A DNA stretch of 64,000 bases, taken from the NCBI RefSeq assembly GCF_000092205.1, contig NC_014216.1, positions 186,001 to 250,000 of the forward strand, given 5' to 3'. The notes beneath the pieces are model-generated. The model saw only the letters and a list, made by a program, of their open reading frames with translations. It ran no database searches and was not told where the DNA came from. Shown here one piece after another: positions 49,939 to 59,334 of this stretch (the first letter of the stretch is position 1; every line of letters begins with the position of its first letter). This DNA is from Desulfurivibrio alkaliphilus AHT 2 (GTDB lineage Bacteria > Desulfobacterota > Desulfobulbia > Desulfobulbales > Desulfurivibrionaceae). Made by a program: the position numbers and the translations under genes.

Positions 49939-49969
49939 CGGTGGTGCGGCCCGCAACGCTGTGTTTAGC

Positions 49970-50143
49970 GTAAGCGAACAGCCGCACCGCATCTTCGGGC
50001 GATCAGCCAGGCTTACGGAGGGGACAGTTTTTAAAACTGTCCCCGATTACGCTGCGCCTGGCTGCAAGACCAAACCTGCGGCGCGGCTGCTCGCTTACGG
50101 CCCGTTATACCTTGTAGTTTAGTACCCCAGGTGAACGGTTACT
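49970..50143. repeat. Repeat family A, copy 4 with inserted palindrome and tail
   Basis: The core at 49970-50098 carries the standard arms (GTAAGCGAACAGCCGCACCG; right arm ending GCTCGCTTAC). A 25-bp palindrome at 50020-50044 (GGGGACAGTTTT, T, AAAACTGTCCCC) replaces the usual centre. The tail at 50099-50143 matches the other copies. It lies between torD and the rhodanese gene. Confidence 0.88.
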
Positions 50144-50175: not shown

Positions 50176-50592
50176 TCAGCGCACGCTGATGGGGTAACGT
50201 CTCCGTTGCCAGTCGGGGAAACCGGCCCGGTAGGTGTAAACATTTTTGTGGCCGGCCTTTTGCGCCGCGACCGCGGCAGCGGGGGCCAGGCCTCAGTCGA
50301 AGCCCCGGCAGTAGAAGACCAGCGGGACCTCTTTGTCGTCCGGCAACAGCCGGGCAATATCCTGAAACTGGTTGCTGGCCTGGGAGCTGATGTTGATGGC
50401 GCCGCTGATATGCCCCTGGCGGTACTCCTGTTCGGTCCTGGTGTCCACCACCACGATTCTGCGGGGCTCATCCATGCGCTGTTTCAACTCTTCGGTGCTC
50501 AGGTCGCTGATCCAGGCCCGGGCTCCGGCGGTGGCGGCCAGCAGCAGACAGATGCTGGTGGCCAGCAGAATGGTAAAAAATTTATAACGCAT
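50176..50592 (-). CDS. Secreted rhodanese-like protein, probable selenoprotein with in-frame UGA
   Basis: A frame of 139 codons (138 residues) from ATG 50592 to TGA 50176, crossed by one in-frame TGA at 50293-50295. The signal peptide is about residues 1-25 (LATSICLLLAATAGARA). The rhodanese domain shows IVVVDTRTEQEYRQGHISGA and the active loop C95-R-G-F-D-U100. After the UGA the frame continues without break as GLAPAAAVAAQKAGHKNVY and YRAGFPDWQ, which is conserved rhodanese sequence. The bases directly after the UGA fold into a long stem with an apical loop containing GGUC 21 bases from the UGA, like the fdhF SECIS element. With selA in the same window, UGA is most likely read as selenocysteine. 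It would act in the periplasm on sulfur. Confidence 0.82.
50250..50295 (-). promoter_or_regulatory. Putative bacterial SECIS element
   Basis: After the UGA, GGCC(U)GGCC pairs with GGCCGGCC over eight base pairs with one bulged U. Inside this, CGCUGC pairs with GCGGCG (one G-U), leaving the apical loop CGCGGUC. The loop GGUC and its distance from the UGA resemble the E. coli fdhF SECIS that SelB recognises. Compensatory changes in homologues would confirm it. Confidence 0.65.
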
Positions 50593-50753
50593 CGCTTCCT
50601 TACTCCTTCTGGTTTTATTCCGAACTGGCGGTTTGCCGGGCCATGGTTTAAGCTGGACCCGATTTGCGGATGTTATTCATTCGGGCATCGCATGTCAATA
50701 CAGAAAGGGGTCGGAAAGGCCGGAAAAAACGGTCGTTGGGGAGGTGGAGGCAG

Positions 50754-57882: not shown

Positions 57883-59334
57883 ATGACCAGATCGCCTTCT
57901 GCCGCAGCCGATTCCCACTCCTTACTGCGGGCCATCCCCAAAGTTGATGAAGCGGTGTCCTGGCTGGCCTCAGAGCTTGAGGATCCTGGGGCGGCCGAGT
58001 CGGCGTGGGCCGTCGTGCCGCCCCGGCTGATGAAAAATGTGGTGCGGGAAGTGCTGGCCGAATACCGCCGGCGGATCCTGGCCGGAGATAACCCGAGTTT
58101 GGCAGAGCTGGCCCGGGAAGGATTGCTGCCACGCCTTAAGGAGCGCCTGGCCGGCCGCTTGCAGCCCAACTTTCGCCCGGTGATCAACGCCACCGGGGTG
58201 GTGGTGCATACCAACCTGGGGCGCTCTCTGCTGCCGGCGGCGGCCTCCGCCAACCTGGCAGCGGTGGCCTGCCGTTACTCCAACCTGGAATATGACTTGC
58301 ACACCGGCCGGCGGGGCAGCCGCTACTCCCTGGTGGAAGATCTGCTCCTTGAGCTGACCGGGGCCGAGGCGGCGCTGGTGGTCAACAACAACGCCGCCGC
58401 CGTGCTCCTGGTGCTGCAGACCTTGGCCCACGGGCGCGAGGTCATTGTCTCCCGGGGGCAACTGGTGGAAATCGGCGGCTCGTTCCGCATTCCCGAGGTC
58501 ATGGCCCGCAGCGGCGCCCGCCTGGTGGAGGTGGGGGCCACCAACCGGACCCATCGGCGCGACTACGAGCAGGCCATCGGCGAGGAAACCGCCCTGCTGC
58601 TCAAGGTTCACACCAGCAACTACCGGATCAGCGGTTTCACCTCCGAGGTGGCCGCCGAAGAGCTGGTGGACCTGGCCCGCGGCTACCGTTTGCCGGTGAT
58701 GGAAGACCTGGGCAGCGGTTCCCTGCTGGATTTTTCCCGTTACGGCTTGACTAAAGAGCCCACGGTGCAGGAGGTGCTGGCGGCCGGGGTCGACGTGGTG
58801 ACCTTCAGCGGCGACAAGCTGCTCGGCGGCCCCCAGGCCGGGCTGATCCTGGGCCGCCGGGAGCTGATTGAACAGATCAAGAAAAATCCTCTTAATCGGG
58901 CGCTCAGGATCGACAAATTCACCCTGGCCGCACTGGAATCGGTGCTGCGTCTTTATTTTGACGAGGAGCAGGCCTGCCGGGAGATTCCCACCCTGCGCAT
59001 GCTCACCTCCCCGTACCAAGAGCAGCGCCGCCGGGCGCAACGGTTGCGCCGTCGCCTGCGAGGGTTGCCCGCCGCCTGCTGCGAACTGGAACTGGTCAGG
59101 GTGAATTCCCGGGTCGGCGGCGGGGCCCTGCCGGAGATGCCCCTGCCCAGTTGCGCCCTGGCTCTCAAGCCGCAGCGGATGAGCCTGAATCGGCTGGAGC
59201 AGGCCCTGCGGGCGGCGCCGGTGCCGGTGATTGGCCGGATCGAAGATGATCGCCTGCTGCTTGATATGCGCACCGTGGCCGACGCTGAGGTCGCCGAACT
59301 GGCGTCGGTTGTGCAAGAGGTGCTGGGTACCTGA
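57883..59334 (+). CDS. selA: L-seryl-tRNA(Sec) selenium transferase
   Basis: A 483-residue PLP enzyme converting Ser-tRNA(Sec) to Sec-tRNA(Sec). Family motifs: VINATGVVVHTNLGRSLLPA, YSNLEYDLHTGRRGSRYS, VNNNAAAVLLVLQTLAHGRE, VGATNRTHRRDY, KVHTSNYRISGF, and FSGDKLLGGPQAGLILGR with the PLP-binding Lys. The length matches E. coli SelA (463). It shows the organism makes selenoproteins and supports the reading of the UGA in the rhodanese gene. selB and selC are not seen here. A small lipoprotein gene precedes it. Confidence 0.97.
   Translation: MTRSPSAAADSHSLLRAIPKVDEAVSWLASELEDPGAAESAWAVVPPRLMKNVVREVLAEYRRRILAGDNPSLAELAREGLLPRLKERLAGRLQPNFRPVINATGVVVHTNLGRSLLPAAASANLAAVACRYSNLEYDLHTGRRGSRYSLVEDLLLELTGAEAALVVNNNAAAVLLVLQTLAHGREVIVSRGQLVEIGGSFRIPEVMARSGARLVEVGATNRTHRRDYEQAIGEETALLLKVHTSNYRISGFTSEVAAEELVDLARGYRLPVMEDLGSGSLLDFSRYGLTKEPTVQEVLAAGVDVVTFSGDKLLGGPQAGLILGRRELIEQIKKNPLNRALRIDKFTLAALESVLRLYFDEEQACREIPTLRMLTSPYQEQRRRAQRLRRRLRGLPAACCELELVRVNSRVGGGALPEMPLPSCALALKPQRMSLNRLEQALRAAPVPVIGRIEDDRLLLDMRTVADAEVAELASVVQEVLGT

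Follow-up and report, generated by a model that had tools for sequence, protein, structure and literature searches.

A conserved, predicted periplasmic single-domain rhodanese of Desulfurivibrio alkaliphilus with a UGA codon, read as selenocysteine, in its active-site loop

In a 64,000-nucleotide stretch of the chromosome of Desulfurivibrio alkaliphilus AHT 2 (hereafter designated the window), the minus strand at 50176–50592 carries a rhodanese gene that starts with an ATG at 50592, is coding from 50592 to 50179, ends with a TGA stop at 50178–50176, and contains one in-frame TGA at 50295–50293, corresponding to residue 100. With this codon read as selenocysteine (Sec), the product is a single-domain protein of 138 residues, which begins with MRYKFF and ends with FYCRGFDUGLAPAAAVAAQKAGHKNVYTYRAGFPDWQRRRYPISVR. 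Sec100 closes the six-residue active loop of the rhodanese, C95-R-G-F-D-U100, five residues past Cys95 (codon 50310–50308), the predicted persulfide-forming catalytic Cys. The initial annotation had located the gene and its TGA at residue 100 correctly, leaving the strand unstated; no rhodanese was seen on the plus strand of the same interval. It had also expected gene callers to cut the protein at residue 99, which is where a mechanical list of open reading frames indeed stops the frame. A Shine-Dalgarno-like AAGGAG (50603–50608, minus strand), read from the sequence, lies 10 nt 5' of the ATG, and a sigma-70-like promoter match, TTGACA-17-TAACAT (50670–50698, minus strand; 10/12 positions), is weak evidence, one such match having been found against 0.4 expected. 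Residues 1–26 (50515–50592) form a predicted signal peptide, recognized by eye from the sequence and the model, with a hydrophobic helix at residues 2–22 and the ending ARA, suggesting that the single-domain rhodanese is probably exported to the periplasm.

The downstream gene encodes a TorD/NarJ-like chaperone (PF02613). Between it and the rhodanese gene lies a 131-bp inverted repeat (49969–50099) with 44-nt arms that are 80% complementary, which looks like a REP-type repeat; its centre is the perfect palindrome GGGGACAGTTTTTAAAACTGTCCCC (50020–50044), found in three exact copies in the genome (3,097,763 bases, one contig), whereas the reversed control gave none. No conserved operon was found for the rhodanese gene, as no neighbour is common to all 15 loci compared and some are common within sub-groups only. 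A plasmid search gave 15 records, all below 60% identity and 10 of them listed at 29–35%, with nothing informative among them.

The read-through product matches the Pfam Rhodanese family (PF00581) with 77.9 bits (cut-off, 22.2) over residues 32–130 and profile positions 1–101 of 102, and the 99-residue product scores 54.2 bits, so that reading through the UGA gains about 24 bits. AlphaFold2 modelling based on a 20-row alignment (hereafter A4; 18 Sec and 2 Cys rows) gave a pLDDT of 86.1 and a pTM of 0.74. The top solved match found by Foldseek is the rhodanese-fold structure 6mxv (E 2.8e-6), and VIA-align superposed the model on 3tp9 with a Z of 16.3 (rmsd 1.7, 104 residues aligned) and on Escherichia coli GlpE (1gmx) with a Z of 15.2 (rmsd 2.2, 105 residues aligned). 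The window protein is thus modelled with a rhodanese fold; in the 99-residue product, the helix behind the active loop and everything after it, comprising helices and a strand, would be missing. The length of the open frame beyond the UGA was rejected as evidence for read-through, because, among the 150 frames in the window that end with TGA and have at least 90 codons, 67 also remain open for at least 38 more codons.

The open frame and the hairpin described below are not decisive by themselves, and it is the comparison across relatives that goes far beyond chance. Relatives were sought in 257 genomes of the order to which D. alkaliphilus belongs, in 277 of the class of Pelovirga, and in 395 of the phylum that includes a Thermodesulfovibrionales MAG. 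Among the loci retrieved, at least 33 distinct stand-alone relatives form a clade in which position 100 is encoded by TGA in 30 and by TGT (Cys) in 3; the latter are the Cys homologues that the initial annotation had suggested looking for. Six of these members come from the window's order, 4 from the class of Pelovirga, and 23 from the phylum of the Thermodesulfovibrionales MAG, groups that we take to be Desulfobulbales, Desulfuromonadia, and Nitrospirota-type genomes. Further short rhodaneses with one TGA occur outside the 33 (for example, in genomes G514, G513, G495, G470, G533, G471, and G459, and on G549 contig 131 and G893 contig 95). Within the window's own family (27 genomes, its own included), three relatives with 77, 63, and 56% identity each contain exactly one TGA, aligned to residue 100. 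Moreover, TGA occupies this position in all of eight distinct stand-alone orthologues, which include the window gene and those of Pelovirga terrestris and the Thermodesulfovibrionales MAG. The scan of named genomes used two peptide patterns that both precede the UGA, so it was made without selection for what comes after this codon.

A tree restricted to Cys and Sec rows (133 rows, 101 columns; quick method) supports the clade with an SH-aLRT value of 97. This tree admitted only rows with Cys95 and with Cys or Sec at position 100, leaving out L034 (see below) and identical domains, so the restriction to Sec or Cys is partly built in there. A second tree of 218 rows, in which any residue was admitted at position 100, again recovered the clade (SH-aLRT 90), still with 30 Sec members, 3 Cys members, and no third state. 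Scores against the family profile also separate the clade, its lowest member having 104 bits versus 66 bits for the best row with another residue at this position. The 133-domain tree requires nine changes between Sec and Cys. Cys95 is Cys in all 20 rows of A4 and in all 43 Sec domains counted, and one Sec member of the clade (L194) has two extra residues between this Cys and Sec.

Homologues that end naturally at residue 99, and loss of the frame after the UGA in close relatives, had been named in the initial annotation as observations that would speak against a selenoprotein. None of the 33 clade members retrieved ends at residue 99; the 30 Sec frames continue through the C-terminal part of the rhodanese (29 read directly and one, L214, by its match), and the frame is kept in relatives with 78, 63, 60, 55, and 51% identity. 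The sole exception seen is L034 (positions 1450–1623; G002 contig 180, 3.2 kb, from an assembly 77% complete), in which a signal peptide is joined to approximately the last 30 residues and the UGA-bearing middle is absent. The break lies near a GC-rich repeat of the hairpin and represents either a real deletion or an assembly collapse.

The protein part following the UGA is under purifying selection. Over the 35 codons 3' of the UGA, dN/dS against the window gene was 0.24, 0.12, 0.18, 0.28, 0.22, and 0.39, with dS saturated in a seventh comparison (L052); over the 28 codons 5' of it, values of 0.26–0.49 were obtained in five of the seven comparisons, the other two being saturated. In all five comparisons that gave both values, dN/dS was lower after the UGA than before it.

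Directly 3' of the UGA, a bacterial-type SECIS (bSECIS) hairpin is predicted at 50250–50292 (minus strand), in which 8 pairs make up the lower stem and 2+5 pairs the upper one, capped by an apical GGUC loop (50272–50269) that starts 20 nt after the UGA. This fold is close to the one given in the initial annotation, which had stems of 8 and 6 pairs and a GGUC loop 21 bases from the UGA. The energy of the hairpin, −28.0 kcal/mol (z −1.75), is only modestly unusual when taken alone, since 8 of 200 shuffled sequences fold equally well. The Rfam SECIS model RF00031 gave no match in the whole genome, a silence that is uninformative, as the model gave none in 14 control genomes either. When the hairpin predicted from the window is mapped onto eight aligned sequences, 85% of the pair cells are kept versus 79% in shuffles, of which 1 in 500 reaches 85%, and versions of the hairpin slid along the alignment keep 28–50%. 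Its covariation score was reached by 5 of 500 shuffles; in the stem pair at columns 21–30, C-G is replaced by U-A in two of the eight sequences, and both columns lie at third codon positions. Double-changed pairs and further pair types were no more numerous than in shuffles, of which 100 and 109 of 500, respectively, reached the observed numbers. RNAalifold applied to the eight orthologues retained the upper stem and placed the lower stem in another register; the upper stem is well supported, and the register of the lower one less so.

For comparison among domains, we used a bSECIS rule that asks for a loop of 3–14 nt starting 14–37 nt after the UGA, with a G at the first or second base of the loop, and for at least 4 stacked pairs. 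Hairpins of this kind were found in 42 of the 43 Sec domains and in 28 of the 90 Cys domains (Fisher, 1.2e-14, for domains that are not phylogenetically independent); the Cys count becomes 29/91 if the deleted copy L034, no true Cys form, is included. Among domains with other residues at position 100, they were found in 14/58 with Gly, 2/10 with Arg, 2/8 with Ser, 0/3 with Ala, and 0/2 with Thr. Within the clade, among the loci read, 29 of the 30 Sec genes (all but L208) and 2 of the 3 Cys genes have such a hairpin. Phylogenetically independent pairs, of which there were 4 (on starred branches), pointed in the same direction without reaching significance (median p, 0.25).

The genome also encodes the machinery for Sec incorporation. 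The window itself contains selA for Sec synthase (57883–59334, plus strand; PF03841, 559 bits), as reported in the initial annotation, about 7 kb from the rhodanese gene and on the opposite strand. Elsewhere in the genome, selB (351 bits) and a tRNA-Sec gene (73 bits) were found with scores over their cut-offs, so that the absence of selB and selC, the remaining observation named beforehand as contrary, does not apply. In addition, selD (384 bits) lies at chromosome positions 2,436,357–2,437,286 (L231) and has one in-frame TGA, the selenophosphate synthetase that it encodes probably being a selenoprotein as well. At E 1e-60, selB was detected in 8 of the 10 assemblies of one set (the window's own included) and in 9 of the 12 of another (8 over the cut-off). 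At the same threshold, it was not found in three Sec-bearing assemblies (G026, which is 60% complete, as well as G575 and G751), in G004, in which a stand-alone gene was not seen, or in the Cys-form genome G618. Another Cys-form genome (G567) retains selB, and a third (G607) gives a partial selB match from base 2 of its contig.

Collectively, these data bear on whether the UGA is translated at all and, if so, by which amino acid. Were it a true stop, the gene would yield a 99-residue half-rhodanese or be in decay, as might be read from the end of the mechanically listed frame and from the relative (L034) that has lost the middle of its gene. Against this stand the 30 TGA codons and three Cys codons at one position of the clade, among the loci read, the purifying selection downstream of the UGA, the gain in rhodanese score upon read-through, and the helices and strand after the loop that the shorter product would lack in the model, so that termination at residue 99 appears very improbable. 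Suppression or programmed read-through inserting another amino acid, with no part for selenium, has in its favour that UGA read-through occurs in bacteria. It is hardly to be expected here, where the full Sec machinery is present in the genome, Cys is the only aligned replacement in the clade among the loci read, and a hairpin stands at the usual bSECIS distance in nearly all Sec genes of the clade. From this comparative sequence evidence, we conclude that the window gene almost certainly encodes a selenoprotein, with UGA codon 100 decoded as Sec.

Exchange between Sec and Cys at the same loop position is seen both within the clade and among paralogues. The loops of the closest Cys forms, FYCRGLGCSLS (L198 and L200) and FYCRGAGCTLS (L201), compare with FYCRGAGUTLS of the Sec forms L199 and L207, and one IclR-like gene (71–75% identity; labelled by eye) adjoins L198 and L201 with Cys as well as L207 with Sec. 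In the D. alkaliphilus genome, a paralogue on the minus strand at chromosome positions of about 490.9–492.1 kb (L216; L234:6858–8096) has three rhodanese domains and an N-terminus that is lipoprotein-like by eye, with the UGA at +5 of domain 1 (FYCGGLAUPFT) and Cys in domain 2 (FYCGGHHCDLS). The multi-domain paralogue on the minus strand at about 2,849 kb (L217) has Cys in domain 1 (FYCGGLHCPLS) and Sec in domain 2 (FYCGGYGUPHS), an arrangement that mirrors that of the 491-kb protein. Multi-domain rhodaneses with Sec at +5, FYCGG[YF]TUGMSP, also occur in genus g4 of the window's family (L029, L030, L031, L033, L035, L037, and L038), and Cys versions of such proteins are found in that genus (L032) as well as in another one (L041).

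The 491-kb paralogue is adjoined on the same strand by NrfD-like and PhsA-like genes, which score below the specific family models (494.5 bits versus a cut-off of 694 for PhsA, with NrfD/HmcC-type models far under theirs). It would fit the rhodanese DaAHT2_0417, described next to psr/phs in D. alkaliphilus in the genome paper (PMC5016858), and the annotation of that rhodanese may have been cut at the UGA. Because a paralogue thus stands beside a PhsA-like gene and the published rhodanese beside psr/phs, the likeliest setting of the window rhodanese, by analogy, would be periplasmic polysulfide or thiosulfate metabolism.

The host is a sulfur-metabolising soda-lake bacterium, and the catalytic Cys of rhodaneses forms a persulfide. 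The genome paper (PMC5016858) describes strain AHT2T as a strict anaerobe capable of thiosulfate and sulfur reduction and of sulfur disproportionation. Judging from the sequence, we consider it fairly probable that the window gene encodes a selenoprotein and that this protein acts as a periplasmic sulfane-sulfur carrier or reductase, with Cys95 taking the sulfur and Sec100 resolving. In the proposed mechanism, UGA 100 would be decoded as Sec via the downstream bSECIS hairpin with SelA, SelB, tRNA-Sec, and SelD of the same genome; Cys95 would become Cys-S-SH with sulfur donated by polysulfide, thiosulfate, or a partner; and Sec100 would then resolve the persulfide, giving a Cys95–Sec100 selenenylsulfide with release of sulfide, or would itself take over the sulfur. 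The enzyme would be reset by a DsbD/thioredoxin-type donor or by a respiratory sulfur reductase, and the Cys-x4-Cys relatives would perform the same chemistry with a thiol. The initial annotation had proposed a selenosulfur transferase; since Sec occupies loop +5 instead of the place of the catalytic Cys, resolving the persulfide is no less likely a role for it.

In the same selenoprotein, the roles might instead be reversed, with Sec100 as the sulfur carrier or nucleophile (an Se-S persulfide) and Cys95 resolving, or the protein might not be a sulfurtransferase but a general thiol/selenol oxidoreductase. Sec is usually the attacking residue in selenoproteins; TsoB, a rhodanese-related selenoprotein discussed below, has Sec at both loop positions, implying that either can attack, and the fusion of its rhodanese domain to a DsbD-like part (by family name) points to redox chemistry. 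Nevertheless, Cys95 stands at the canonical rhodanese nucleophile site and is invariant in the alignment and in the Sec domains counted, which makes these versions rather unlikely, and we prefer to assign sulfur uptake to Cys95 and the resolving step to Sec100. More broadly, and only tentatively, the clade may represent an uncurated family of secreted single-domain C-x4-U rhodaneses of Desulfobulbales, Desulfuromonadia, and Nitrospirota-type genomes that were ancestrally Sec-containing, in which Sec at +5 would resolve the persulfide and the protein would serve as a free periplasmic, selenium-dependent shuttle of sulfane sulfur for sulfur reduction or disproportionation.

These results add a conserved selenoprotein, which a plain open-reading-frame call cuts at residue 99, to a type strain that is available in culture and has been studied for its sulfur disproportionation, the pathways of which the genome paper (PMC5016858) calls poorly understood. 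With 30 Sec and 3 Cys members in the clade, and both states in tandem domains of single proteins, natural variation at one loop position offers a ready test of selenium versus sulfur in persulfide chemistry.

The initial annotation had called the protein new-looking, which holds in part. The window protein gave 17 NCBIfam matches, all under their cut-offs; rhodanese selenoproteins as such, however, are already catalogued in five forms, UxxS, UxxG, CxU, UxxG, and UxxxxU (TsoB), in a 2026 review (PMC13188914). Another source lists a 'Sulfurtransferase homologous to a rhodanese-like protein' with numbers 24 and 25 (PMC5029168). The window protein is not named in the passages on rhodaneses and sulfurtransferases of PMC13188914, PMC9312934, PMC1088965, PMC5029168, PMC1794560, PMC2398784, and PMC5877670, which does not imply its absence from print. 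The word Desulfurivibrio does not occur in the available portions of PMC13188914 and PMC5029168 and is used for an ExtI homologue in that of PMC5877670, and the available portion of the species genome paper (PMC5016858) contains no word beginning with 'selen'.

Among known systems, E. coli GlpE shares the single-domain rhodanese fold at 21% identity to the window protein; GlpE is not known to be a selenoprotein or to have a signal peptide. TsoB (NF045694, form 5) is the best NCBIfam match, with 82.4 bits over residues 31–136 and Sec at the same +5 position. However, the match spans only positions 46–157 of the 572 of the model, far below its 805-bit cut-off, and in TsoB the residue corresponding to Cys95 is a second Sec (UxxxxU) and a DsbD-like part is fused to the rhodanese domain, whereas the window protein is a single-domain CxxxxU protein. 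The TsoB loop reads FYUAGLTU in all four loci read of six fetched; in a search of 249 genomes of the order at E 1e-100, TsoB matches were obtained in 30, and none in the D. alkaliphilus genome. The rhodanese_LYCAU family (NF041203, form 3) likewise comprises single-domain rhodanese-related (seleno)proteins and was matched over positions 7–124 of 126, but with 53.4 bits versus a cut-off of 115, and its Sec comes two residues after Cys (CxU in PMC13188914) instead of in C-x4-U. At E 1e-5, both of these models, TsoB and LYCAU, match all 20 members of A4. Forms 2 and 4 (UxxG) differ in motif, which is absent from the window protein, UGLA. Form 1 (UxxS, WP_010941598.1), compared by motif only, is a rhodanese domain with one Sec, and its spacing fits loop +5, as in L219 (FCAGVTUALS). 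The window protein reads UGLA, not UxxS, but some members of the clade read UGLS or UTLS and so could belong to form 1; the UxxS examples outside the clade, among the loci read, are multi-domain, unlike the single-domain window protein with its predicted signal peptide. Selenium in rhodaneses is therefore already known, and the window gene is, by its predicted product, a member of a single-domain C-x4-U subfamily.
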